NCBI RefSeq assembly: GCF_036967205.1
Contig: NZ_CP146022.1
Coordinates: forward strand, 7,006,001 to 7,070,000
Direction: 5' to 3'
Source of the DNA: Streptomyces sp. Q6
Lineage (GTDB): Bacteria; Actinomycetota; Actinomycetes; Streptomycetales; Streptomycetaceae
Length of the DNA: 64,000 bases
In this document: positions 25,187 through 41,620 of the stretch, one piece after another
Layout: each line of letters begins with the position of its first letter
How positions within the stretch are numbered: the stretch's first letter is position 1
Notes under the pieces: model-generated
The model's input: the letters and a program-made list of their open reading frames with translations, nothing else
Databases searched by the model: none
Told to the model about the DNA's origin: nothing
Made by a program: the position numbers and the translations under genes

Positions 25187-25203
25187 CGGCCGGCGCCGAT
25201 GGC

Positions 25204-25899
25204 TCAGCCCAGGCGCCAGGTTCCCGCCGCGTCGGACCGGCGCTCCGGTTCGAGCGGCTGTCCGGCCGCCGCCGCGGCCAGCCAGCCGGCCCACCGGTCG
25301 ACGAACTCGTCGAGCGTGAGGTCGGTCAACTCCGTGACGGGCCAGACGACGTCGAACTCCTCCTGAGCCGCGGACGGCGCCAACGCGTCCCGCGCCTCGG
25401 CCGTCTCCGGGGACAGCGCGCACGGAACATGTTCGAGGTGCACGCGGTCCGGATGGCAGGGCGCGAAGGCCGTCTCGTACCAGCGGAACGTCCCCGGTTC
25501 GTCGGCGTCGCAGTACCACAGCGCGTGACCGCGCCCCGGCGCCCGCCGGTCGTGCGGGGTCAGCCGGATCTCGGCCGCCGCGATCACGTCGAAGGGCATG
25601 CCGGGTGCGGGGACCACGGGGTCGGCGATACCGATGCGGAGTTCGGCGGTCGGCAGGCGCAGTGACCAGAACAAGGGGGAGTCGGCCTGCTCCTGGGCCT
25701 GCCGGGCGGCCTCGGTGAGTTCCGTGCGCAGCCGCTCGGTGATCGACTCGAGGAGCGTCGCCGCGGCGTGGAACAGCTCTGCCCGGTCGGCCGAGGCGAT
25801 GTCGGCGCCGGCCGCGTGGCTGAGTTCATGGAAGACGCGGTCCGTCTCCCGGTCGTTCCACACCCGGAGCCGGTCAAGGCCTTTTGGACGACCTCGCAC
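25204..25899 (-). CDS. Uncharacterised protein at the end of the kinase/AAA cassette
   Basis: A 231-aa acidic protein I do not recognise. The N-terminal half is helical (VFHELSHAAGADIASADRAE, then a coiled segment ITERLRTELTEAARQAQEQA). The C-terminal half contains GHALWYCDADEPGTFRWYET, ending with a Trp-rich VDRWAGWLAAAAAGQP helix. There is no signal peptide, membrane segment or catalytic motif. Its GTG start overlaps the kinase gene by 26 nt, so it is translated with the kinase. It may be a substrate, adaptor or effector of that kinase; this is inferred only from position. Confidence 0.7.
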   Translation of the reverse strand: MRGRPKGLDRLRVWNDRETDRVFHELSHAAGADIASADRAELFHAAATLLESITERLRTELTEAARQAQEQADSPLFWSLRLPTAELRIGIADPVVPAPGMPFDVIAAAEIRLTPHDRRAPGRGHALWYCDADEPGTFRWYETAFAPCHPDRVHLEHVPCALSPETAEARDALAPSAAQEEFDVVWPVTELTDLTLDEFVDRWAGWLAAAAAGQPLEPERRSDAAGTWRLG

Positions 25900-26695
25900 G
25901 GTCGAAGCGGTCGAGGCGCGCCCGCAGGTCGCGGGCGGTGGGGCGGGCCCCGGCCGGTTTGAACAGGGACTCCTTCACCAGGGCCGCCAGCTCCGCCGGC
26001 ACGTCCCGCGGCAGCGGTGGCAGGGGATCACTCAGGTGCTGGCGGCGGTAGTCGTGGCTCTGCGGGCCCTTGAACGGGCGGCTGCCGGTGAGGAGTTCGT
26101 AGGCGACGACACCGGCCGCGTAGACGTCCGTGGCCCCCGTGGCCCGGTCGCCGCGCCACTGTTCGGGCGCGGCGTACGGCGGGGTGAGGCTGTGCTTGCG
26201 GGTGTTGGGGTCCGTCGACGCCTCGGCGTAGCGCGAGATGCCGAAGTCGGCGAGCCGCCAACTGCCGTTCAGGAGAAGGATGTTCGCCGGTTTGAGGTCG
26301 CGGTGGACGACCTGCCCGTCGAGGGCGACCAGCGCGGCGGCGATATCGCGCAGCACCGCCAGGGTGTCCGTCAGGGGGAGCGGGGCGCCGCCCTGCCGGG
26401 CCAGCCGCACATCGAGCGAGGTGTCGGCGAGCGGCATGGCGAGAGCCCAGTGGTCCTCGGTCTCGCCCGCGTCGAGGACCGGCACGACGTGCGGCGATTC
26501 GGCCAGCGTGCGGCCGAGCAGCAGTTCGCGGTCCGCGCCGGGCGCCTTCTCGATCAGCTTCACGGCGCCGGTCGCGCCGTCGCCCCGGCGGGCCTGGAAC
26601 ACGAGGCCGAAGCCGCCGCTGCCGATGCGCTCGCCGAGGACCCAGGCGCCCTTGTCCATGGTGATCGAGTCGCCCGGCTCGGGGACGTGTTTCAT
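25874..26695 (-). CDS. Soluble Ser/Thr protein kinase (Hanks type)
   Basis: A 273-aa protein consisting of a kinase domain only. It has glycine loop GERIGSGGFGLVFQA (21-35), lysine K46 in GAVKLIEK, catalytic loop HRDLKPANIL (D133), DFG at 150-152 and APEQWRG. It lacks the transmembrane helix and PASTA or sensor domains of housekeeping PknB-type kinases, so it acts in the cytoplasm. The start ATG overlaps the AAA ATPase stop (ATGA), so the two are made together. Probable substrates are the cassette partners. Such short orphan kinases beside an ATPase are typical of signalling or conflict-type cassettes rather than cell-division operons. Confidence 0.9.
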   Translation of the reverse strand: MKHVPEPGDSITMDKGAWVLGERIGSGGFGLVFQARRGDGATGAVKLIEKAPGADRELLLGRTLAESPHVVPVLDAGETEDHWALAMPLADTSLDVRLARQGGAPLPLTDTLAVLRDIAAALVALDGQVVHRDLKPANILLLNGSWRLADFGISRYAEASTDPNTRKHSLTPPYAAPEQWRGDRATGATDVYAAGVVAYELLTGSRPFKGPQSHDYRRQHLSDPLPPLPRDVPAELAALVKESLFKPAGARPTARDLRARLDRFDRARSSKRP

Positions 26696-27984
26696 GCCTT
26701 CTCCTCGTCCGGCTTCTCGTCGGCGTCCGGCGCCGGGAGCCGCTTGGCCCGGTCCGCCGCCATCGACTTCGCGAACTCCTCGGCGGTCTCGTCGAAGAGC
26801 CGCTGGTCGCTGGTGATGCGCTGGTGAACGTTGACGACCGCCTGCTTGTAGCGCTTGGCGCACTCGGCGATGTCGGCGTAGGAACAGCCCTCCAGGAGTG
26901 CGGCTCCCTTGGCGAGGCGCGGCGGCTTGACGCCCCCGGGCCCCTCGAGTGCCTGGCGCAGCAGTTCCTCTCGCTGGGTCTTGTCGGGCCCGTGCACCGG
27001 GATGTGGACGCCGAGGCGGCCCGAGCGCAGCAGGGCCGAGTCCAGGTTCTCGATGTGGTTGGCGGTGGCGAGGAGCACGTACCCCTGGGTGGGTTCCATC
27101 CCGTCGAGGAACTCCAGCAGGTCGGCGAGGAAACGCTGGCGCATCTCCTGGCTGTTCTGGTTGTCGGTCGCCCGCAGCCCGCAGTAGATGTCGAGGTCGT
27201 CGAGGACGATCAGGACGGGCGAGCGGGAGGCCGCCATGCGCAGATGGTCCCCGATCTCGGTCCAGTCCCAGAGGTTGGCGACGTCGAGGAACACGGCGTT
27301 GATCCCCGTCTCGACGGCGTGCCGTACGGCGAGCCGGCTCAGGATGGTCTTGCCGTTGCCGGGCGATCCGTGCAGCAGGACGCCCCGCTTGGGCGGAACT
27401 CCCCACTCCAGGAGCAGGTTCGCGGTCTCGCCCTGGAGGAAGCCCGACGTGTTCGCCTTCACCTTCTCCATCAGGCCGTCGGCGAAGACGTAGGAGTCGG
27501 GGTCGACCTGCCGCCACAGGTCGGCGTCGAGCAGTCTGGCGCCCTTCCACACCCGGCCGACGTCCTTGCCGCGCGAGTTGAGCGCGGTGTACACCGCCTT
27601 GAAGTCGTCGCGGCGGCACACCAGGAAGGGCCCGCTGTCGTCCAGGTCGACGAAGACATAGCGCAGTTCGATCCCCTGCACGGTGCGGGAGGCGCACAGG
27701 TAGATCGACGCGACATGGTCGAGGAGGGCCTCGGGTTGCATGCCGTGGGCCGCCTGGCGCAGCCAGCGGCCGCCGTCCTGGCTGACGATGACCATCCGCT
27801 CGACGACCTCGCCCTCGTCGAAACTGCCGACGATGGTGCTCGGCCACTGGAGGGTGATCAGATCGTCATCGGCGATCCCCTGGAGGTAGGTCTTGATGCG
27901 GATGCTCTCGGGCTCGTGCAGGGGTGTGCTCAGGTCGCTCCATTTGGCGCCGAGCGGAAGGGGGACAACTCTGGGATCCGACAC
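26692..27984 (-). CDS. AAA+ ATPase with a large novel N-terminal domain
   Basis: A 430-aa protein. Residues 1-175 form an N-terminal domain I do not recognise (SFDEGEVVERMVIVSQDGGR, YLCASRTVQGIELRYVFVDL). The AAA+ core follows: Walker A GSPGNGKT at 206-213, Walker B VLIVLDDLD at 257-265, sensor-1 LLATANH and an arginine-finger region ALLRSGRLGVHI, the ring-forming pattern shared with FtsH- and CDC48-like ATPases. There is no protease domain. The tail is charged (ADEKPDEEKA). It could unfold or remodel the partner encoded upstream. It lies 42 nt after that gene and overlaps the kinase start by 4 nt. Confidence 0.85.
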   Translation of the reverse strand: MSDPRVVPLPLGAKWSDLSTPLHEPESIRIKTYLQGIADDDLITLQWPSTIVGSFDEGEVVERMVIVSQDGGRWLRQAAHGMQPEALLDHVASIYLCASRTVQGIELRYVFVDLDDSGPFLVCRRDDFKAVYTALNSRGKDVGRVWKGARLLDADLWRQVDPDSYVFADGLMEKVKANTSGFLQGETANLLLEWGVPPKRGVLLHGSPGNGKTILSRLAVRHAVETGINAVFLDVANLWDWTEIGDHLRMAASRSPVLIVLDDLDIYCGLRATDNQNSQEMRQRFLADLLEFLDGMEPTQGYVLLATANHIENLDSALLRSGRLGVHIPVHGPDKTQREELLRQALEGPGGVKPPRLAKGAALLEGCSYADIAECAKRYKQAVVNVHQRITSDQRLFDETAEEFAKSMAADRAKRLPAPDADEKPDEEKA

Positions 27985-28026
27985 CGGGATCGACTCCGTT
28001 CTGACGGGTTCTGCCGAGTGCGCCGA

Positions 28027-28986
28027 TCACATCTGGCGTTGGGTCCGGAACCGGCAGGTCCTGAACATCTCCTTCACGAACCCGTCGAGGACGCCGTCGC
28101 GAAGGAAGTCCACCAGGGCGATGCGGTAGTCGCTGCTGGAGTCGGAGTCGAATCCGAAGGTGCCGTGAATGGTGCTCTCGGAGAGGTTCTCGGCGGCCGT
28201 GTTGCGCAGTTGGGCCGTGAAGACGATGAAGCGGCCGTTCTCGTTGAACGGTGCTTCGATGGTGATCCATGTGTTGCGCGGCTTCTCCGTACCGCGCAAC
28301 GGGTCCTTGAACTTCTCCCTCTTGGAGATGGTCAGGTCGAGGCGGTAGAGGTCGAGGGCGGTGGGCGACGCCATCCGCCCGCTGGAGTCGGGGATGTTCG
28401 GAACGATCTCCTTGAGCACCTCCGTGTTACGGATCTTCGGCTTGCCGCCGCCGCCGTCGTAGCGCACGAAATCGCTGAAGTAGAAGACGAAGGTGTGCTG
28501 GGAGCGGGCCGGGCGCAGCGGCCGGTTGGCCACGTTCTCCATGGTCCGCCGGAAGGTCGCCTCGATCCGTTCCGCCTCCGCCATGAAGAGCAGGTACCAG
28601 GAGTAGAAGTCCGCGAACGACGAGGGCCGCCGGTGGATCTCGAAACGGTCCGTACCGATGATGAAGGCGCAGTGGTGGAGGTCGTGCCCGAAGGTGAACT
28701 CCACGTGGGAGATCGAGTTCGGGTTGTCGCCGTCCACCTGGGTGCGGGCCTCGAGCACGTCGAGGTAGTGGATGCCCCTCAGTTCGAGGAAGTCGTTGAG
28801 GACGCGGTAGCCCACGGCCACCAGTGCTTCGGCCATCTCGGCGCTGAGCGGTCCGCTCTTCTGATACTCCGTCACGAAGCGGAAGTCGCTGATGTTCTCG
28901 ACCTTTTCGGCCAAGGTGCCGCCCACGAACTCCTCGTACGTGGCGGGGAGGCCCGTGGGTTCGGCAGACAGGTCCCGATGCGACAT
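28027..28986 (-). CDS. Uncharacterised 319-aa protein, first gene of the kinase/AAA cassette
   Basis: No family recognised with confidence. The start MSHRDLSAEPTGLPATYEEF at 28986 has GAAAGGGA 8 nt upstream; a longer frame to 29121 lacks a ribosome site. The protein is soluble. Its middle (HVEFTFGHDLHHCAFIIGTD then RFEIHRRPSSFADFYSWYLL) looks like mixed alpha/beta strands with a loose resemblance to TIGR04255-type proteins. The C-terminal half is strand-rich (TWITIEAPFNENGRFIVFTA) and ends in basic RTCRFRTQRQM. Codon use is less G/C-skewed (more aag/gtt/tcg) than flanking genes, a weak hint of transfer. It probably supplies the sensor or substrate of the ATPase. Confidence 0.7.
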   Translation of the reverse strand: MSHRDLSAEPTGLPATYEEFVGGTLAEKVENISDFRFVTEYQKSGPLSAEMAEALVAVGYRVLNDFLELRGIHYLDVLEARTQVDGDNPNSISHVEFTFGHDLHHCAFIIGTDRFEIHRRPSSFADFYSWYLLFMAEAERIEATFRRTMENVANRPLRPARSQHTFVFYFSDFVRYDGGGGKPKIRNTEVLKEIVPNIPDSSGRMASPTALDLYRLDLTISKREKFKDPLRGTEKPRNTWITIEAPFNENGRFIVFTAQLRNTAAENLSESTIHGTFGFDSDSSSDYRIALVDFLRDGVLDGFVKEMFRTCRFRTQRQM

Positions 28987-29263
28987 AGAGATCCCTTTCA
29001 CGCCCGGTGTGCCACGTGAAACGGCTTGCCGACGGAGGAGCGACATCCGGTGGAGAGGCGTGCCTCGCCCCCGGCGCGTCGACCGACCTTGCTGTTCCCC
29101 GCACTCCGATGTGTCCGACACCGTCGCTGCCGAAGATAGCAGGAGAAATGCCGCACGGAGGGCGGTGCGAGGAACACGAACCGGCTGCGGTTGTACGTCG
29201 GTCGGGCATCGGTGGGCAGCCGGGTGGGGCGTGGCCCCACCCGGTGGTGGGAGACCGCCGGTG
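28987..29263. promoter_or_regulatory. Promoter region of the kinase/AAA cassette and 3' flank of the amidohydrolase gene
   Basis: 277 nt with no gene. It must hold the promoter for the minus-strand cassette (28986 downwards). The segment near 29133-29150 (agatagcaggagaaatg) is relatively AT-rich for this genome. The terminator hairpin at 29220-29244 lies at its distal end. Confidence 0.4.
29220..29244 (-). terminator. Strong GC hairpin downstream of the amidohydrolase gene
   Basis: An 11-bp perfect stem, ccgggtggggc with gccccacccgg, around a 3-nt loop, begins 20 nt after the amidohydrolase stop codon on the minus strand. This is the usual Streptomyces terminator form without a U-tract and isolates the kinase/AAA cassette from read-through. 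Confidence 0.65.
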
Positions 29264-30565
29264 TTACACCAACTCCCCGTTGCGGGCGACCACTTGACCC
29301 CCGTGGACGACCATGTCGCGCTGCGGCATGTCGACCACGACCTGCGGTACGCACTCGCCGCGGACCAGGACGAAGTCCGCGGGGTCGCCCGGCTCGAAAC
29401 CGGCGCGGTCCAGGCCCATCACGTCGGCGCCGCCATGGGCCCCGACCGTGTAGCAGGCGGTCAGTTCGTCGTCGAGGCGGACGTCCGTGACCCAGCCGAG
29501 GAGGTGCGCGCGGTGCAGCATGTCCGCGTTGCCGAACGGGCTCCAGGAGTCGCGGACGCCGTCCGAGCCGAGGCCGACACGGACCCCGTGCTCGTGCAGC
29601 TTCGTGATCGGCAGGACCAGCGACTCGTTCGGCGCGACCGTCGTCAGGGCGATGTCCAGGTCCGCCAAGTCGCCCGCCATCGTGTCGAGTTCACTGTCCG
29701 ACAGGAACGGCAGGCAGAACACATGACTGACCGTCACCTTGCCGCGCAGGGACAGGGCGCGGGTGCGCTCGATGATGCCGCGCAGCACCGTCGTGCCCTT
29801 CTCGTCGCGGTCGTGGAGGTGGATGTCGACGCCGACGCCGTAGCGGTCCGCCAGGCCGAAGACCAGGTCGAGCTGCTCGTCCAGGGCGTGGTCGAAACTG
29901 ATCGGGTCGATGCCGCCGATCATGTCGACGAGTCCGGAGCGCGCCGCGTCCTCCAGGAGCTTCGCCGTCCCCGGCGTACGGATGACGCCGTGCTGTGGGA
30001 ACCCGACGATCTGCACGTCGAGCGCGTCGGCGAGGCGTTCGCGCGCCTCGGCCACGCCTTCGAGCCCGGCCAGACCGTACGCGGGTGCCACGTCGGCGTG
30101 CGCCCGCATCGCGCGCGTGCCGCGCGTCACCGCGTGCGCCATCAGGCCGTACGCCCGCTCGCCGACCGGGCGCTTCTGCGACCGGAACAGCTCGACGTCC
30201 TGCGCGCAGTACTCGGCGATGCCGGAGGCCGGCTCGCGGCTGACCCAGTCACCGCCCCAGCTCGTCTTGTCGGGGTGGATGTGCGCGTCCACGAGCGCGG
30301 GCAGCGCGAGCCGTCCGCCGCCGTCGACCACCTTCGCGCCGCGCGGGGCGGGCGCGTCGCTGATCCGTCCGTCGACGACCGTCAGGTCGACGGCCTCCTC
30401 GGCGCCGAAGGGGCGTACGTCACGGAAGACCACGGCCTTCTTCGGGGCGGGGCCGCTCCCGGGCGTGGACGGCTGTGCCGCCGACGCGGCCGTCGGGGTG
30501 AACGCCGCGCCGAGCGAGGCGGCGCCCGCGAGGACACCGCGCCGGGACAGGGGAGGGGGAGTCAT
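29264..30565 (-). CDS. Tat-exported amidohydrolase (cytosine-deaminase-like)
   Basis: A 433-aa metal-dependent hydrolase. The N-terminus MTPPPLSRRGVLAGAASLGA carries a twin-arginine signal (SRRGVL) followed by a hydrophobic stretch and an ASAA cleavage region near 27-30. Metal ligands are H95 and H97 in DAHIHPDK, His in the DIHLHDRD strand, the HVFCLPF histidine and the final Asp in LGSDGVRDSW. The segment order is that of cytosine/isoguanine deaminases, so a nucleobase or related cyclic amidine is a likely substrate. Export suggests scavenging outside the membrane. AAGGAGAACC precedes the ATG. A GTATAC operator lies 40 nt upstream and a GntR gene is next. Confidence 0.87.
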   Translation of the reverse strand: MTPPPLSRRGVLAGAASLGAAFTPTAASAAQPSTPGSGPAPKKAVVFRDVRPFGAEEAVDLTVVDGRISDAPAPRGAKVVDGGGRLALPALVDAHIHPDKTSWGGDWVSREPASGIAEYCAQDVELFRSQKRPVGERAYGLMAHAVTRGTRAMRAHADVAPAYGLAGLEGVAEARERLADALDVQIVGFPQHGVIRTPGTAKLLEDAARSGLVDMIGGIDPISFDHALDEQLDLVFGLADRYGVGVDIHLHDRDEKGTTVLRGIIERTRALSLRGKVTVSHVFCLPFLSDSELDTMAGDLADLDIALTTVAPNESLVLPITKLHEHGVRVGLGSDGVRDSWSPFGNADMLHRAHLLGWVTDVRLDDELTACYTVGAHGGADVMGLDRAGFEPGDPADFVLVRGECVPQVVVDMPQRDMVVHGGQVVARNGELV

Positions 30566-30603
30566 GCGGTTCTCCTTGAGGGGAGGAGTGGCCTGGCCCG
30601 CTT

Positions 30604-30613
30604 TTTGTATACC
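30604..30613. promoter_or_regulatory. Candidate GntR operator upstream of the amidohydrolase
   Basis: TTTGTATACC, with the palindromic core GTATAC, about 40 nt upstream of the amidohydrolase start. The exact reverse complement recurs at 30722-30731. FadR-subfamily GntR proteins commonly bind GTATAC-type dyads, and a FadR-type gene is adjacent. Confidence 0.55.
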
Positions 30614-30718
30614 AAGGGGAGGGTGACGACAAGGCCGCCCGGCGTCGGACGCTCTGGGGTGCGGCTTTAGCCGGGAATGTCGGAGGTGCTGGAGGTGCCG
30701 CGAGGGCGACCGGTCGCT

Positions 30719-31477
30719 CTAGGTATACAAAGCGGGGTCGGTGGGGCCCGTGTCTCCGGTACGGGTGTCGCCGATGCCGGTGTCCGCCAGGCCCGTGTCC
30801 CCGAACAGCGACTTCAGCGCCACCGCACGGCTGTCCCTGACGTGCAGCAGCGTGCTCGCCGCCGCCGCCTCCGTGTCGCCCGCCGCGATGTGCCGGAACA
30901 TGTCCGCGTGCTGCGCCCGCATGTGCGCGGGCTCCTCCCGCATCCCGAACAGCAACCGCAACTGCCCGCTCAGCTGCTCCATCGTGCGGGACAGCAGCGG
31001 ATTGCCGGTGAGCGCCACGATCTCCTCGTGGAACGCCGTGTGGGCCGCCACCTCGCGCGTCCCCTCGTCCGCCGCGGCCGCCCGCTCGGCCCGGTCGAGC
31101 AAGCCGCGCAGCGCGGCCAGGCCCGGCAGCGCGTCGGGCGCTGCCGTGGCGACCGCGCGGGCCGCGAGCCGCGACGCCTGCACGGCCAGCGGCTCCCACA
31201 CCTCGTACAGGTGCGCCACGTCGGCCCGTTCCAGGCGTCGCACGCGGACACCGCTGTGCGGCAGCAGCTCGAGGAGTCCTTCGGAGACGAGCGCGCGCAG
31301 CGCCTCGCGCACCGGCACCCGGGACATGCGCAGCTCCTCGGCGACCTCGCGCTCCACGAGCCGTGCGCCCATCGGGTAGCGGCGGTCGACGATGCGCCGG
31401 CGCACCTCGTCGCGCGCCTGCGCGCTGAGCGACGTACGCCCCTGCCCCGGCTCCACTGCCTTGCCCGTCACGTGCAC
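30719..31477 (-). CDS. GntR family (FadR/FCD-type) transcriptional regulator
   Basis: A 252-aa protein. The winged HTH spans about 15-80 (RRRIVDRRYPMGARLVEREV, RMSRVPVREALRALVSEGLL). The C-terminal FCD ligand domain includes FHEEIVALTGNPLLSRTMEQ and QHADMFRHIAAGDTEAAAAS, with the His residues that bind metal or carboxylate ligands in this family. The last 25 residues are a repetitive GDTG/ADTG tail. It probably represses the amidohydrolase through the GTATAC sites on either side of the intergenic gap; one site overlaps its own stop codon. The GTG at 31477 (or the second GTG 6 nt later) follows GAAGGAC. Confidence 0.87.
   Translation of the reverse strand: MHVTGKAVEPGQGRTSLSAQARDEVRRRIVDRRYPMGARLVEREVAEELRMSRVPVREALRALVSEGLLELLPHSGVRVRRLERADVAHLYEVWEPLAVQASRLAARAVATAAPDALPGLAALRGLLDRAERAAAADEGTREVAAHTAFHEEIVALTGNPLLSRTMEQLSGQLRLLFGMREEPAHMRAQHADMFRHIAAGDTEAAAASTLLHVRDSRAVALKSLFGDTGLADTGIGDTRTGDTGPTDPALYT
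30722..30731. promoter_or_regulatory. Second GTATAC site overlapping the gntR stop codon
   Basis: GGTATACAAA is the exact reverse complement of the site at 30604-30613 and encodes the last residues (ALYT) of the GntR protein. The two lie 108 nt apart, about ten helical turns, compatible with a looping pair. Being inside the 3' end of the regulator gene, it is either a true operator or a duplication. Confidence 0.45.
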
Positions 31478-31567
31478 CGTCCTTCACCCTTCGTGCCCCG
31501 GGCGAGGATACGTGCACCTCCTGGGTCTCCCGCCGCTTCAGGGGAACCGCGTGCGATCGGGCGTCCC

Positions 31568-36716: not shown

Positions 36717-37136
36717 ATGACCGTTGTCCCTGCACAGCAGTCAGGCGGCGGTGGCGGCACCAGCGGCCTGTACGACGTACTCGAACTCGTTCTGGACCGC
36801 GGACTCGTCATCGACGCGTTCGTCCGTGTCTCGCTGGTCGGCATCGAGATCCTGAAGATCGACGTCAGGGTCGTCATCGCCAGCGTCGACACCTACCTGC
36901 GCTTCGCCGAGGCCTGCAACCGCCTCGACCTGGAAGCGGGAGCGAAGCGCAGCCCCGGCCTGCCCGACCTCGTCGGTGAGGTCACCGAGTCGGGCGCGCG
37001 CGGCAAGTCCAAGGGCGCCCTGTCCGGGGCCGCGCAGACCATCTCCGAAGCGTTCAACCAGGCGCGGGACGAGGGCCAGCCCGAGCCCAAGCGCACCCGC
37101 CGTGCCCCGAGCCGCCGTAAGGAGGAGCAGGAGTGA
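36717..37136 (+). CDS. gvpA: Gas vesicle structural protein GvpA-type, with long C-terminal tail
   Basis: A 139-aa protein. Residues 17-70 carry the GvpA core ([49 protein letters not shown]) that stacks into the ribbed vesicle shell. Classical GvpA is about 70-75 aa; this one adds about 65 residues, charged and ending in a Lys/Arg-rich [15 protein letters not shown]. An AAGGAGGACCG site precedes the ATG. A 75-nt leader after gvpO and the strong site suggest high expression. It overlaps gvpF by 4 nt. Confidence 0.93.
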
Positions 37137-37891
37137 CCAGCACCTACATCTACGGCATCGCCAACGCCGAACACCCGTCGCTGCCCGCCGGCATGGGCGG
37201 CATCGGCGCCCCGGCGCGCGAGGTGCGCATCGTCAAGGAGGGCCCGCTCGCGGCGATCGTGAGCGAGGCTCCCGAGGACCTGCGCCCCAAGCGGCGCGAT
37301 CTGCTCGCCCACCAGAGCGTCCTCGCCGAGGCGGGCGGCGGCGGCTCCGTGCTGCCGATGCGGTTCGGCAGCCTCGCCCCCGACGACAAGGCCGTCGCGG
37401 ACGTGCTCGCCGAGCGCGCGGAGCACTATCTGGAGCGGCTCGCATCCCTCGACGGCAAGGTCGAGTACAACGTGAAGGCGCAGCACGACGAGGAAGCCGT
37501 CCTGCATCGCGTGATGGCCGAGAACGCCGAGGTCCGCACCCTGGCCGAGGCCAACAGGCAAGTGGGCGGCGGCACGTACGAGGAGCGGCTGCGCCTCGGC
37601 GAGGTGGTCGTCTCGGCGGTGCAGGCCCGCGAGGCCGAGGACGCCGTCGAACTTCAGCACCTGCTCGAACCGGCGGCGGAGGCGGTGTCCACCGGACCGG
37701 AGAGCACGGGCTGGCTGGCCAACCTCTCCTTCCTCGTCGAGCAGAAGACCTCCGAGCGCTTCCTCGCCGCGATCGAGGAGGTCCGCCGGAGCCATTCGCA
37801 CATCGAGCTCACCGTCAACGGCCCGCTGCCGCCGTACAGCTTCGTGGAGCCCGGCCCCTCGGAGCCCGCGGACGTGGGCGCGGAGCAGTGA
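37133..37891 (+). CDS. gvpF: Gas vesicle protein GvpF (GvpF/L family)
   Basis: A 252-aa protein of the two-domain GvpF/GvpL family. It opens [20 protein letters not shown] and contains the conserved [15 protein letters not shown] strand and [20 protein letters not shown]. It ends [20 protein letters not shown] followed by [11 protein letters not shown]. GvpF binds GvpA and is part of the assembly complex. It is translationally coupled to gvpA (GTGA overlap). Confidence 0.93.
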
Positions 37892-37895
37892 CCCG

Positions 37896-38120
37896 ATGGG
37901 TCTGATCACAGAGGTGTTGTTGCTGCCGTTCGCGCCGGTGCGCGGGTCTTTCTGGGCGATGGAGCAGTTGCTCAACGAGGCCGAGCGTCAGTACTACGAC
38001 CCTGCGGTAGTCAGGGCCGAACTCGCCCGTCTGGAAGCGCAGTTGATGGCCGGCGAGATCGACCAGGAGACATTTGACCGTATCGAGGACCAGCTCCTCG
38101 ACCGGCTGGAGGGCAAGTGA
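37896..38120 (+). CDS. gvpG: Gas vesicle protein GvpG
   Basis: A 74-aa, largely helical protein: MGLITEVLLLPFAPVRGSFW then a coiled region ERQYYDPAVVRAELARLEAQ and EIDQETFDRIEDQLLDRLEG. This is the GvpG signature of a hydrophobic N-terminus and an ED-rich end. It is an assembly factor, 4 nt after gvpF and overlapping the next gene by 4 nt. Confidence 0.92.
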   Translation: MGLITEVLLLPFAPVRGSFWAMEQLLNEAERQYYDPAVVRAELARLEAQLMAGEIDQETFDRIEDQLLDRLEGK

Positions 38121-38869
38121 ACCGAGTAGCGCTCGGCCTCGCGGTAGGGGCCGGCTACGTCCTCGGGCGTACGAAGAAGATGAAGCTGGCGTTCGCCGTC
38201 GGCACGATGGTCGCGGGCAAGCGGATGAAGCTGAGCCCGCGCGCGCTCGCCGACATGGTGAGCCAGCAGTTGGAGAACAACCCGCAGTTCAAGGAGATCG
38301 GGGACCAGCTCCGCGAGGACCTGCGCGGCGTCGGCAAGGCCGCGTCGGGCGCCCTGGTGGAGCGCCAGATCGAGGGCCTCGCGGGTCGCCTGCACAGCCG
38401 TACGCAGGGGGTGCGCGACCAGATATCGGGCGTCGCGCCCGACGTGGACGACGTGCGGGGCGCGGGCGAGCGGGTGACGGGCACCGTGGTGCCCGGGAGC
38501 CGCCGCTCCGAGGAGGAGCCGTACGACGACGAGGACGAGGCGTACGACGACGAGGTCGACGCCCGCGACGCCCACGACGCCGATGAGCCCGACGAGGACG
38601 CCCCCGATCAGGGCGCCCGCGACGCGGACCCGCACGAGGCGGACGCGCATGACGAGGACGCGCAGGACGAGGACGAGCGTCCGCAGCGGCGCGCGCCCCG
38701 CGCGTCGTCGGCCGCGAAGAAGACCTCGGCGGCCTCCGGGAAGCAGAGCGCCGCGAAGCAGAGCACCGGCGGGTCCAGGGGCGCCGCGAAGAAGACCGCC
38801 CGTACCGCCAAGAAGACCGCGGGCAGTGCGCCCCGCGCGACCACGAAGGGAGGCCGTGGCCGTGGCTGA
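38117..38869 (+). CDS. gvpY: Gas-vesicle cluster protein GvpY, acidic then histone-like tail
   Basis: A 250-aa protein known only from actinomycete gvp clusters. Residues 1-130 open with a weakly hydrophobic segment (VALGLAVGAGYVLGRTKKMK), then helices (MVSQQLENNPQFKEIGDQLR). Residues 135-195 are almost all Asp/Glu with Ala/His (EEEPYDDEDEAYDDEVDARD). From about 200 to the end it is a Lys/Ala/Ser-rich basic tail with AAKKT repeats (SAAKKTSAASGKQSAAKQST), like histone H1 C-termini. The two charge blocks could pair with each other or with the acidic tail of the next protein. GTG start, overlapping gvpG and the following gene. Confidence 0.85.
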   Translation: MNRVALGLAVGAGYVLGRTKKMKLAFAVGTMVAGKRMKLSPRALADMVSQQLENNPQFKEIGDQLREDLRGVGKAASGALVERQIEGLAGRLHSRTQGVRDQISGVAPDVDDVRGAGERVTGTVVPGSRRSEEEPYDDEDEAYDDEVDARDAHDADEPDEDAPDQGARDADPHEADAHDEDAQDEDERPQRRAPRASSAAKKTSAASGKQSAAKQSTGGSRGAAKKTARTAKKTAGSAPRATTKGGRGRG

Positions 38870-40007
38870 CAGCCCGAAGAACGCGCTCACCGGCCTCGCG
38901 AAGAGCCAGGCCACCGACCATCTCAAGGCCGAACTCCAGGAGTACCTGGCGGCGCAGGCACAGCGGATCCTGGTCGGCGCCGGCCGCAAGCTCGGCGAGT
39001 CGACGGTCAAGCTGAACGACATCGCCGCGGGCAACAGCCCCGGCTTCGCGAAGCTCGCCCTCGACGGCGGCCGCAAACTCGCCGAGGGCAAGGGCCCGTT
39101 GCGTACCGCCGTCGAGGTGGGCGCGGGGCGGCTCAAGGACAATGTCGTCGGGGCGTTCAAGGGCCTCGGCGGCGGCAAGAGCAAGCGCAAGGGCGGCGCC
39201 GGCAAGAAGCCGACCGTCATCATGGAGTTCATCGACATCGGTGTCGATCTGCGGACCGCGTACGACCAGTGGACGCAGTACCAGGAGTTCAGCACCTTCG
39301 CGAAGGGCGTCAAGAACGCCAATCGCGCCGACGACACCACGTCGGACTGGCAGCTCAAGGTCTTCTGGTCCACCCGGAGTTGGAAGGCGCACACCACCGA
39401 GCAGGTGCCGGACGAGCGGATCCAGTGGACGTCCGAGGGCGCCAAGGGCACGACGAAGGGTGTCATCTCCTTCCACCCGATGGGCGACCGGCTGACGCGC
39501 GTGCTGCTGCTCATCGAGTACTACCCGAAGGGCCTGTTCGAGAAGACCGGCAACATCTGGCGTGCCCAGGGCCGCCGGGCCCGTCTCGACCTCAAGCACT
39601 TCGCGCGGTTCGTGACGATGCGCGGCGAGGCGAGCGACGGCTGGCGCGGCGAGATCCAGGACGGCGAGGTCGTCCGCAGCCACGAGGACGCCGTGGAAGA
39701 GGAGGAGCAGGAGCGCGAGGCCCGCGAACAGGAGGAGCAGGAGGAGCAGGAGGCCCAGGACAAGCCGCAGGACGACGCGTACGAAGGCGGCGAGGAAGAG
39801 GACTGGGACGAGCACGAGGACGCCGACGCGGAGGAGCCCGGCCGGTACGACGACGAGGCCGACGAGGGCGACGAACCCGAGAACCTCGATGAGCGCGACG
39901 AGGCCGACGAGGAGCCGTACGACGAGGCCTACGAGGACGCCGAGCCGGAGGACGAGCCGGAGCCCGAGCCCCGGCGGCGCCGCGCCGGCGCGGGAGCCCG
40001 CGGATGA
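38862..40007 (+). CDS. gvpZ: Gas-vesicle cluster protein GvpZ with SRPBCC domain and acidic tail
   Basis: A 381-aa protein. The N-terminal 110 residues are helical and basic (KLAEGKGPLRTAVEVGAGRL). Residues about 113-255 form an SRPBCC/cyclase-like domain (KPTVIMEFIDIGVDLRTAYD, WQLKVFWSTRSWKAHTTEQV, LIEYYPKGLFEKTGNIWRAQ). The last 115 residues are extremely acidic and Gln-rich (EEEEQEREAREQEEQEEQEA), ending in an Arg cluster. SRPBCC domains usually bind lipids or hydrophobic ligands, so it may mediate vesicle-membrane or GvpA chaperone contacts. GTG at 38862, 8-nt overlap with gvpY. Confidence 0.85.
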   Translation: MADSPKNALTGLAKSQATDHLKAELQEYLAAQAQRILVGAGRKLGESTVKLNDIAAGNSPGFAKLALDGGRKLAEGKGPLRTAVEVGAGRLKDNVVGAFKGLGGGKSKRKGGAGKKPTVIMEFIDIGVDLRTAYDQWTQYQEFSTFAKGVKNANRADDTTSDWQLKVFWSTRSWKAHTTEQVPDERIQWTSEGAKGTTKGVISFHPMGDRLTRVLLLIEYYPKGLFEKTGNIWRAQGRRARLDLKHFARFVTMRGEASDGWRGEIQDGEVVRSHEDAVEEEEQEREAREQEEQEEQEAQDKPQDDAYEGGEEEDWDEHEDADAEEPGRYDDEADEGDEPENLDERDEADEEPYDEAYEDAEPEDEPEPEPRRRRAGAGARG

Positions 40008-40342
40008 CCACCGCGAGCCGACTCCCCGAGACCTACCGCAGCGAGGGCGGCGGAGCCAATCTGGCCGACATCCTCGAGCGCGTCCTCGACAAGGGCATCG
40101 TCATCGCGGGTGACATCCGCATCAACCTGCTCGACATCGAACTGCTCACGATCAAACTCCGCCTGATCGTCGCGTCCGTCGACAAGGCGAAGGAGATGGG
40201 CATCGACTGGTGGGAGGACGACCCGGCCCTGTCGTCGGGGGCGCGCCGCAAGGAACTCGCGCGGGAGAACGCCGAGTTGAAGGAACGCCTCGCCGAGCTG
40301 GAGAAGTCCGGCATCGGCCGGGAGGAGAGGGACACCGCATGA
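40004..40342 (+). CDS. gvpJ: Gas vesicle protein GvpJ (GvpA-like)
   Basis: A 112-aa minor shell or nucleation protein. GvpA-like core at 10-62: SEGGGANLADILERVLDKGI, RINLLDIELLTIKLRLIVAS. A helical C-terminal tail follows (RKELARENAELKERLAELEK). Longer than GvpA, as usual for GvpJ/GvpM. ATGA overlaps on both sides. Confidence 0.9.
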   Translation: MTTASRLPETYRSEGGGANLADILERVLDKGIVIAGDIRINLLDIELLTIKLRLIVASVDKAKEMGIDWWEDDPALSSGARRKELARENAELKERLAELEKSGIGREERDTA

Positions 40343-41127
40343 CGACGGACGACCTGCGCTACGTGTACGCCGTGTGCCGGCCGCTCGCCGCCCCCTTGCA
40401 GGCCGAACTGACCGGGGTCGCGGGCGCGCCGCCCGCGCAGCTGGAGCACCACGGCCTCGTCGCGATCGTGGGCAGCGTGCCGGAGCGGGACTTCGCCGAG
40501 GTCCCGCTCCGCGCCCACATGGAGGACCTCGACTGGCTGACGGAGACGGCCCGCGCCCACCAGAACGTGGTCGCGGCCCTCACCACCGTCACCAGCCCGC
40601 TGCCGCTGCGCCTGGCCACGGTCTTCCGTGACGACAGCGGCGTCCGCACCATGCTGGAACAGGAGGAGGACCGCTTCCGTGCGGGCCTCGACCGGCTCGA
40701 GGGGCGCGTCGAATGGGGCGTGAAGGTGTACGTGGAGGAGCCGTCGGCGCAGGCCCAGACCGCGCCGGCCACGCCCGCCGCGTCCTCGGGCCGCGACTAT
40801 CTGCGCCGCCTCAGGGCCGAGCGGACGGCCCGCGACGACACCTGGCAGCGCGCCGAACGGTTCGCGCAGGAACTGCACGACGACCTCGCGCGGTACGCCG
40901 CCGCCGGCCGCATCCACCCACCGCAGAACCCGGAGCTGTCCCGTACCAGCGGCCGCAACGTCCTCAACGCCGCCTATCTGGTGGAGCGTGCCACGTCGGA
41001 GGAGTTCGTGGAGCGGGTCGACGCGACCAAGGACCGCGAGCCGGGCCTGCGCGTCGAACTCACCGGCCCCTGGGCCGGCTACTCGTTCAGCGGCCCGGTC
41101 GGCGACGAGGGGGGCGAGCGGGAATGA
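40339..41127 (+). CDS. gvpL: Gas vesicle protein GvpL (GvpF/L family)
   Basis: A 262-aa second GvpF/L paralogue: DLRYVYAVCRPLAAPLQAEL, GLVAIVGSVPERDFAEVPLR, the PLPLRLATVFRDDSGVRTML strand, GRVEWGVKVYVEE and the C-terminal GLRVELTGPWAGYSF. GvpL nucleates the accessory-protein complex with GvpF, G, J and K. ATGA overlap with gvpJ and gvpS. Confidence 0.92.
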   Translation: MTTDDLRYVYAVCRPLAAPLQAELTGVAGAPPAQLEHHGLVAIVGSVPERDFAEVPLRAHMEDLDWLTETARAHQNVVAALTTVTSPLPLRLATVFRDDSGVRTMLEQEEDRFRAGLDRLEGRVEWGVKVYVEEPSAQAQTAPATPAASSGRDYLRRLRAERTARDDTWQRAERFAQELHDDLARYAAAGRIHPPQNPELSRTSGRNVLNAAYLVERATSEEFVERVDATKDREPGLRVELTGPWAGYSFSGPVGDEGGERE

Positions 41128-41312
41128 CCGTCATCGAACGGCGCGAGATCGCCCTGGTCGACCTGCTCGACCGGCTGCTCGCGGGCGGCGTCGTGCTCTC
41201 GGGTGACATCACCCTGAGGATCGCCGACGTCGACCTGGTCCGCATCGACCTCAAGGCCCTCATCAGCTCGGTCAATGAACAAGTACCTTCCCCGTGGCCG
41301 GAGTTGACATGA
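41124..41312 (+). CDS. gvpS: Gas vesicle protein GvpS (short GvpA-like)
   Basis: A 62-aa protein consisting of little more than a GvpA core: VIERREIALVDLLDRLLAGG, VVLSGDITLRIADVDLVRID, LKALISSVNE. It lacks the C-terminal tail of gvpA and gvpJ products. Likely a minor shell or tip protein. ATGA overlaps with both neighbours. Confidence 0.9.
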   Translation: MTVIERREIALVDLLDRLLAGGVVLSGDITLRIADVDLVRIDLKALISSVNEQVPSPWPELT

Positions 41313-41620
41313 CGAGCAGTCCGCAGAAGCACCGTGAGCAACAGCGCGAGCAGCGTATCGAGCTCGAACCCGACACCGTCGAGCGCGACCTGATGAAGCT
41401 CGTGCTCACCGTGGTGGAACTCCTGCGCCAGCTCATGGAGCGGCAGGCGGTGCGCCGCTTCGACACCGGGGATCTGAGCGAGGACCAGGAGGAGCGGATC
41501 GGCCTCACGCTGATGCTCCTGGAGGACCGCATGGCCGAGCTACGGGACCGCTACGACCTGCGGCCCGAGGATCTGAACATCGACCTCGGGCCACTGGGGC
41601 CGCTGCTGCCCAGGAGCTGA
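41309..41620 (+). CDS. gvpK: Gas vesicle protein GvpK
   Basis: A 103-aa protein ending the operon. A basic Gln-rich start (SSPQKHREQQREQRIELEPD) is followed by the GvpK helix block: VERDLMKLVLTVVELLRQLM, ERQAVRRFDTGDLSEDQEER, LTLMLLEDRMAELRDRYDL. The stop lies 21 nt before the 3' end of the convergent methyltransferase gene. Confidence 0.92.
   Translation: MTSSPQKHREQQREQRIELEPDTVERDLMKLVLTVVELLRQLMERQAVRRFDTGDLSEDQEERIGLTLMLLEDRMAELRDRYDLRPEDLNIDLGPLGPLLPRS

Follow-up and report, generated by a model that had tools for sequence, protein, structure and literature searches.

A rare gene cassette of Streptomyces sp. Q6 encoding an AAA+ ATPase and a Hanks-type kinase divided over two overlapping genes

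The minus strand of Streptomyces sp. Q6 carries four open reading frames in the same direction, located at 28986-25204 of the window, i.e. the whole 64,000-nucleotide stretch of contig NZ_CP146022.1 that was analysed. This cassette is tentatively regarded as an accessory, strain-restricted signalling module, most likely horizontally acquired, in which the protein of gene 1 and a single-ring AAA+ ATPase would be combined with a Hanks kinase whose tail comes from a gene of its own that overlaps the kinase gene. A role in conflict or stress would fit such a module better than housekeeping. The joint module is favoured because the genes are co-directional, with one gap of 42 nt and overlaps of 4 and 26 nt, and because the motifs of the kinase and of the AAA+ protein are present, while gene 4 keeps the invariant columns of its family and gives a confident structure model (pLDDT 89). 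It is favoured also because the kinase groups with its family with 100/100 support, gene 1 is rare and the block is absent in four of eight relatives.

Gene order and the first two genes of the cassette

Gene 1 (28027..28986, minus strand) encodes an orphan protein of 319 aa without a family match. After a gap of 42 nt, without overlap, it is followed by gene 2 (26692..27984, minus strand; GTG start), encoding an AAA+ ATPase of 430 aa. The latter overlaps by 4 nt with gene 3 (25874..26695, minus strand), which encodes a Hanks-type Ser/Thr kinase of 273 aa. Gene 4 (25204..25899, minus strand; 231 aa, GTG start) shares 26 nt with gene 3 (25874..25899, minus strand) in a different frame, within the linker that joins the kinase domain to the coiled-coil, and corresponds to the C-terminal part (coiled-coil and C-terminal domain, CTD) of a kinase family, placed in a frame of its own. 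The four frames and both overlaps, as listed in the preliminary description of this DNA, were confirmed.

A perfect inverted repeat of 11 bp (29220..29244, minus strand) is located between gene 1 and the neighbouring amidohydrolase gene (30565-29264, minus strand; named by eye) and is a candidate terminator lacking a T run. Its hairpin has a z-score of -2.16, and 5 of 200 shuffled sequences fold equally well. Concerning the terminator described earlier upstream of the cassette, the hairpin is indeed present, but a pattern scan for terminators, which found two against a shuffle mean of 1.6, does not pick it; a terminator function is plausible. Directly 5' of the gene 1 start, a 10-bp imperfect inverted repeat, CCCTTTCACG/CGTGAAACGG (28993..29024), could possibly serve as an operator.

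Gene 1 was also described as having a different codon use. This was not borne out, as its third-position GC (0.922) is in the range spanned by the amidohydrolase gene and the rest of the cassette (0.892-0.933). The overall GC of gene 1 is lower (0.639) because of its amino-acid composition, the difference sitting in codon positions 1 and 2 and not in the third position. The protein gave no match in Pfam, PADLOC or NCBIfam at E-values up to 1, nor among plasmids or phages. In two overlapping draws of Streptomyces genomes it was found in 1 of 150 and 1 of 392, its own genome each time, and across 396 genomes of the phylum only its own copy and three weak matches (L002-L004) appeared. The latter were judged to be due to chance; by eye, their ORFs appear to encode different proteins, including a Clp-type ATPase. 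A resemblance to the TIGR04255 family was also considered and rejected, since NCBIfam gave no match and comparison with a profile built from 10 members, of which two are partial, does not support it (hhalign probability 0.1, E 0.51; hmmsearch E 0.096, -1.5 bits). The single-sequence structure model of gene 1 reached a pLDDT of 35 and was unusable.

The core of the AAA+ protein matches PF00004 at residues 202-330 with 65.9 bits (Pfam) and includes the motifs GSPGNGKT (206-213), LIVLDDLD (258-265) and ALLRSGRLG (317-325), the first two being Walker A and Walker B. The usual form of Walker B has a Glu where gene 2 has an Asp (LDDLD). The N-terminal part of about 165 aa is an orphan. Nothing convincing matched it among 395 further genomes from the phylum: besides its own copy there were two weak matches (L006, L007), which were taken as chance after inspection of their ORFs by eye. 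The same was decided for an alphaRep match of this domain (E 5.9e-4), in which no single stretch passes alone. A scan of the genome collection for exact 8-residue patterns of the AAA+ protein, which detects close relatives only and may have left out the own record, gave 147 pattern matches, none confirmed as a close relative. In 246 Streptomyces genomes, the non-own sequences among the matches listed showed at most 35% identity and covered the core or the residues directly N-terminal to it.

Genes 3 and 4 as two halves of one kinase family

The catalytic motifs of Hanks kinases are present in gene 3 (GSGGFG, AVK, HRDLKPAN, DFG and APE). Searching plasmids with gene 4 by tblastn gave 10 records, of which nine have a serine/threonine kinase annotated at the matching position and one has no feature there. 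Nine of the ten matches were examined as loci: eight of the stretches carry one CDS of 478-502 aa with an N-terminal half corresponding to gene 3 and a C-terminal half corresponding to gene 4, and the ninth is without annotation. These genes define a family without a name, consisting of a Hanks kinase, a coiled-coil and a CTD, mostly of about 480-500 aa. A profile scan of the genome collection, based on a 10-row CTD alignment, gave 58 loci; kinase and CTD are found in a single open frame in 53 of them, the exceptions being L074, L078, L083, L084 and L085. Some of the family rows duplicate one another or loci obtained by other searches (L053/L054; L012/L028 and L013/L055 are identical in the kinase domain). 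A split as in genes 3 and 4 was not observed as such among the 58 genome loci. In Q6 the family similarity switches, colinearly, from the gene 3 frame to the gene 4 frame near the 26-nt overlap.

Two statements of the preliminary description have to be revised accordingly. The kinase is not a bare Hanks domain lacking a sensor, because genes 3 and 4 are two halves of one family, so that the kinase is separated from the C-terminal part that is usual in it; and the product of gene 4 is not a tail protein unrelated to the kinase. The earlier remark that two of the proteins could not be assigned holds, as none of the libraries (Pfam, PADLOC, NCBIfam) names either gene 1 or gene 4.

Gene 4 keeps 10 invariant columns of a 46-row CTD alignment in which it is itself one row, and its structure was modelled with confidence (pLDDT 89). 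The CTD, at about residues 65-215, is modelled as an alpha/beta domain; frataxin and bilin reductases were considered as structural matches, the likeness being weak and not clearly above background. No significant match of the CTD was found in Pfam, PADLOC, NCBIfam or PDB; the only two Pfam rows for gene 4 had E-values of 0.21 and 0.43. Third-position GC is 0.927 in gene 3 and 0.892 in gene 4. In a tree of 70 kinase rows, the gene 3 kinase fell into one group with all kinases that bear a CTD (100/100) and was separate from four paralogues of its own genome; its end branch was long (0.7, the median being 0.25). The tree does not establish that the kinase is of foreign origin: the best tree places it outside the Streptomyces group, yet the AU test does not reject a grouping with Streptomyces kinases (p 0.291). 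Broken or partial members of the family were observed as well, L074 having stops in the CTD and L078 carrying a CTD without a detectable kinase.

The accessory block and the neighbours of related kinases

The cassette forms, together with the amidohydrolase gene and a GntR-like gene (31477-30719, minus strand; named by eye), a block of 6.4 kb (25187..31567) between two convergent genes. The gene flanking it downstream was found in 8 of 13 other genomes, which had been picked for carrying the amidohydrolase. In four of the eight it adjoins a homologue of the gene at 31.6 kb of the window and the block is absent, the gap between the aligned pieces being 36, 45 and 59 bp in three relatives and about 0.4 kb in the fourth, against 6.4 kb in the window; in the other four, the homologue of the 31.6-kb gene was not seen within the flanks retrieved. 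The block is accessory, as the flanking homologues adjoin each other in these four relatives. Insertion in Q6 and loss in the relatives are both compatible with this difference. The cassette is therefore not a fixed part of the Streptomyces core, in agreement with the preliminary description, as gene 1 occurs in 1 of 392 Streptomyces genomes and the block is missing at the same junction in four relatives. In relatives, 14 of 14 amidohydrolase loci retrieved align at the DNA level up to the stop codon of that gene, and no cassette follows 3' (flanks of about 1.5 kb). Elsewhere in the window (36717-41620), ORFs resembling gas-vesicle proteins were observed, presumably of the GvpA, GvpF/L, GvpG and GvpK types, as judged by eye.

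Records of the kinase-CTD family come from Actinomycetota, Chloroflexota, Pseudomonadota, Myxococcota, Dormiibacterota and Saccharimonadota. No relative of the AAA+ gene or of gene 1 adjoins a kinase-CTD gene at any of the 58 genome and 9 plasmid loci; tblastn of both against loci L012-L085, with flanks of up to 8 kb and shorter at some loci, gave no match at E <= 1e-3 outside the own locus. The preliminary description had named as its own test whether the four genes recur together in different contexts; no such recurrence was found in the genome, plasmid or kinase-CTD loci searched. The neighbours of kinase-CTD genes vary by locus, and many of them seem unremarkable. A Pfam scan of 112 neighbours found phage integrase three times and kinase, Mrr and sigma-70 region twice each, the other families shown appearing once, and no Pfam family matches more than 3 of the 112. 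Ten upstream neighbours picked by hand comprised a Tn3 transposase, a phage integrase, a CHAT protein, a Schlafen AlbA_2 protein, an SNF2-type helicase, Mrr, a TPR protein, DUF4238, a ribonucleotide reductase and one protein without a match. At L046 and L061, DUF1156 and DUF499 antiphage-associated proteins lie nearby, with scores under the NCBIfam curated cut-offs.

Some further observations were made at individual loci. L076 was placed near DUF1156/DUF499-type proteins by its clustering with L046 and L061 only. On five of six linear Streptomyces plasmids examined (L014, L015, L017, L021 and L022), the kinase-CTD gene lies at most about 10 kb from the plasmid end, with a helicase gene in between in the four of these that are annotated; on the sixth (L016) the distance is about 12 kb. 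Near the kinase-CTD gene of the latter (L016:8928-16498, S. zaomyceticus), the annotation of the record lists a restriction endonuclease, an HTH regulator and a nucleotide cyclase with a Pycsar effector. At L044 and L072 a second kinase domain begins directly 3' of the kinase-CTD gene, and the upstream gene encodes a CHAT protein (L044) or a TPR protein (L072).

Interpretation and comparison with known systems

The sequences establish the order and overlaps of the genes, the catalytic motifs, the common family of genes 3 and 4, the rarity and the accessory location. The gene order suggests that the four products may act together, and the tail encoded by gene 4 would work in trans on the kinase. 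In such a module, the CTD and/or the gene 1 protein would recognise a cue, and the AAA+ ring would remodel the assembly of gene 1 protein and CTD in an ATP-dependent manner. This remodelling would free or cluster the kinase, which could then phosphorylate a target of the host (or of an invader). The AAA+/kinase module perhaps has a conflict-related role, a reading favoured because some relatives of the kinase adjoin Tn3 transposase, phage integrase, CHAT, Schlafen AlbA_2, Mrr or DUF1156/DUF499 genes; cue and target, like an anti-phage activity, are hypothetical here. A bolder version, for which we see little likelihood, is a ring-ATPase-gated kinase switch of a new kind: the tail domain would have been split off so that the AAA+ ring, with its orphan N-domain, and the orphan partner could dock it or take it off, by which a stand-alone kinase would become a regulated conflict system. 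The joint module is weakened by the lack of a second set of AAA+, gene 1 and kinase genes in the collections searched, by the diverse and often ordinary neighbours and by the nonspecific PADLOC signal of the kinase; moreover, the split may be damage, and the AU test does not decide for a foreign origin of the kinase.

Such damage is the strongest rival to the signalling module. A frameshift, due to a nascent pseudogene or to an assembly error, would make genes 3 and 4 one broken gene, and the AAA+ neighbour would be an accident of the accessory region; we hold this to be doubtful, yet a serious possibility. It agrees with the single frame of both parts in 53 of 58 genome loci, with the colinear passage of similarity from frame to frame at the 26-nt overlap, with the lack of a ribosome-binding sequence 5' of the gene 4 GTG as judged by eye, with the existence of visibly broken members (L074, L078) and with the long end branch of the gene 3 kinase. 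On the other hand, conserved residues and the high third-position GC are kept in both halves, and these motifs and this composition speak against complete decay. As gene 3 encodes a complete kinase domain, the frame break need not have abolished its activity. The overlap could also be in use, with ribosomal frameshifting or re-initiation yielding a short kinase besides a kinase with CTD. The 26 nt shared by two conserved frames would allow this, as would the rare codons AAA, AGG and CCT before the TGA (0.88, 4.79 and 1.82 per 1000 in the ORFs called in the window), but we consider it very improbable: downstream RNA folding is ordinary (z -1.05), the split was observed as such at none of the 58 loci, and TGA-C is the commonest stop context, being found in 20 of 54 called ORFs (a set from a crude caller that missed some genes, including the kinase gene). 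As this stop context is not special in the window, an RF2-like frameshift context at the overlap was rejected.

A regulator outside defence, for instance of the adjoining amidohydrolase and GntR-like genes, is an unlikely alternative. Its appeal is the common 6.4 kb block and the common strand, against which stand the 14 of 14 amidohydrolase relatives without a cassette 3' and the hairpin between the amidohydrolase gene and the cassette.

The signalling module, if the AAA+ partnership is real, would represent an unusual control of a bacterial Hanks kinase. The kinase-tail domain family has no name in the copies of Pfam, NCBIfam and PADLOC searched, and together with its confident model it provides a starting point for testing which signals these sporadic and apparently soluble kinases respond to.

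Kinases occurring in MoxR-vWA systems have been described (PMC7159879), and the passages of that paper on these kinases hold no match to the arrangement of an AAA+ gene with a split kinase. None of the titles and abstract openings covered by a literature search describes it either, which is no proof of absence.

In PADLOC, the kinase scored 171 bits with mad6 and 154 bits with the best PD-T4-6 model. This label was dropped as nonspecific, since the four best paralogues from the own genome, used as controls, all score higher (185-247 and 199-312 bits, respectively). MAD6 of the MADS system is a Hanks kinase too, but with 124.2 bits gene 3 stays below the NCBIfam cut-off of 460 bits. With PD-T4-6 it shares the Hanks kinase domain and matches the models, the four controls matching better. 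Gene 4 gave no PADLOC match. IetAS consists of the AAA+ ATPase IetA and the protease IetS. The AAA+ core of gene 2 matches IetA models (PADLOC best 1.3e-19; NCBIfam 58.5 bits), far under the equivalog cut-off of 510 bits, and the proteasome-activating nucleotidase scores higher (80.7 bits, NCBIfam); no peptidase family was detected in the other three cassette proteins (Pfam, E up to 1). The PADLOC and IetA labels therefore give no support to a defence function.

The TPR-like AAA+ protein of several Streptomyces genomes (L152-L157) resembles gene 2, with 30-33% identity over the core and the stretch leading into it (query residues 153/161 to 376/385), but has another N-terminus (TPR by eye), and no relative of gene 1 or of genes 3 and 4 adjoins these six loci at a convincing E-value. 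The kinase-CTD family (plasmids L014-L020 and L022 of Streptomyces, Rhodococcus and Variovorax; genome loci L028-L085) is colinear with genes 3 and 4. Its kinase domain is 52.7-56.6% identical to gene 3 in the nine best plasmid rows and about 44% identical in two further Rhodococcus rows, and its C-terminal part is 27-41% identical to gene 4. The family uses one frame, in 8 of 8 annotated plasmid genes and in 53 of 58 genome loci, whereas the cassette of Q6 carries the same two parts as two overlapping genes.
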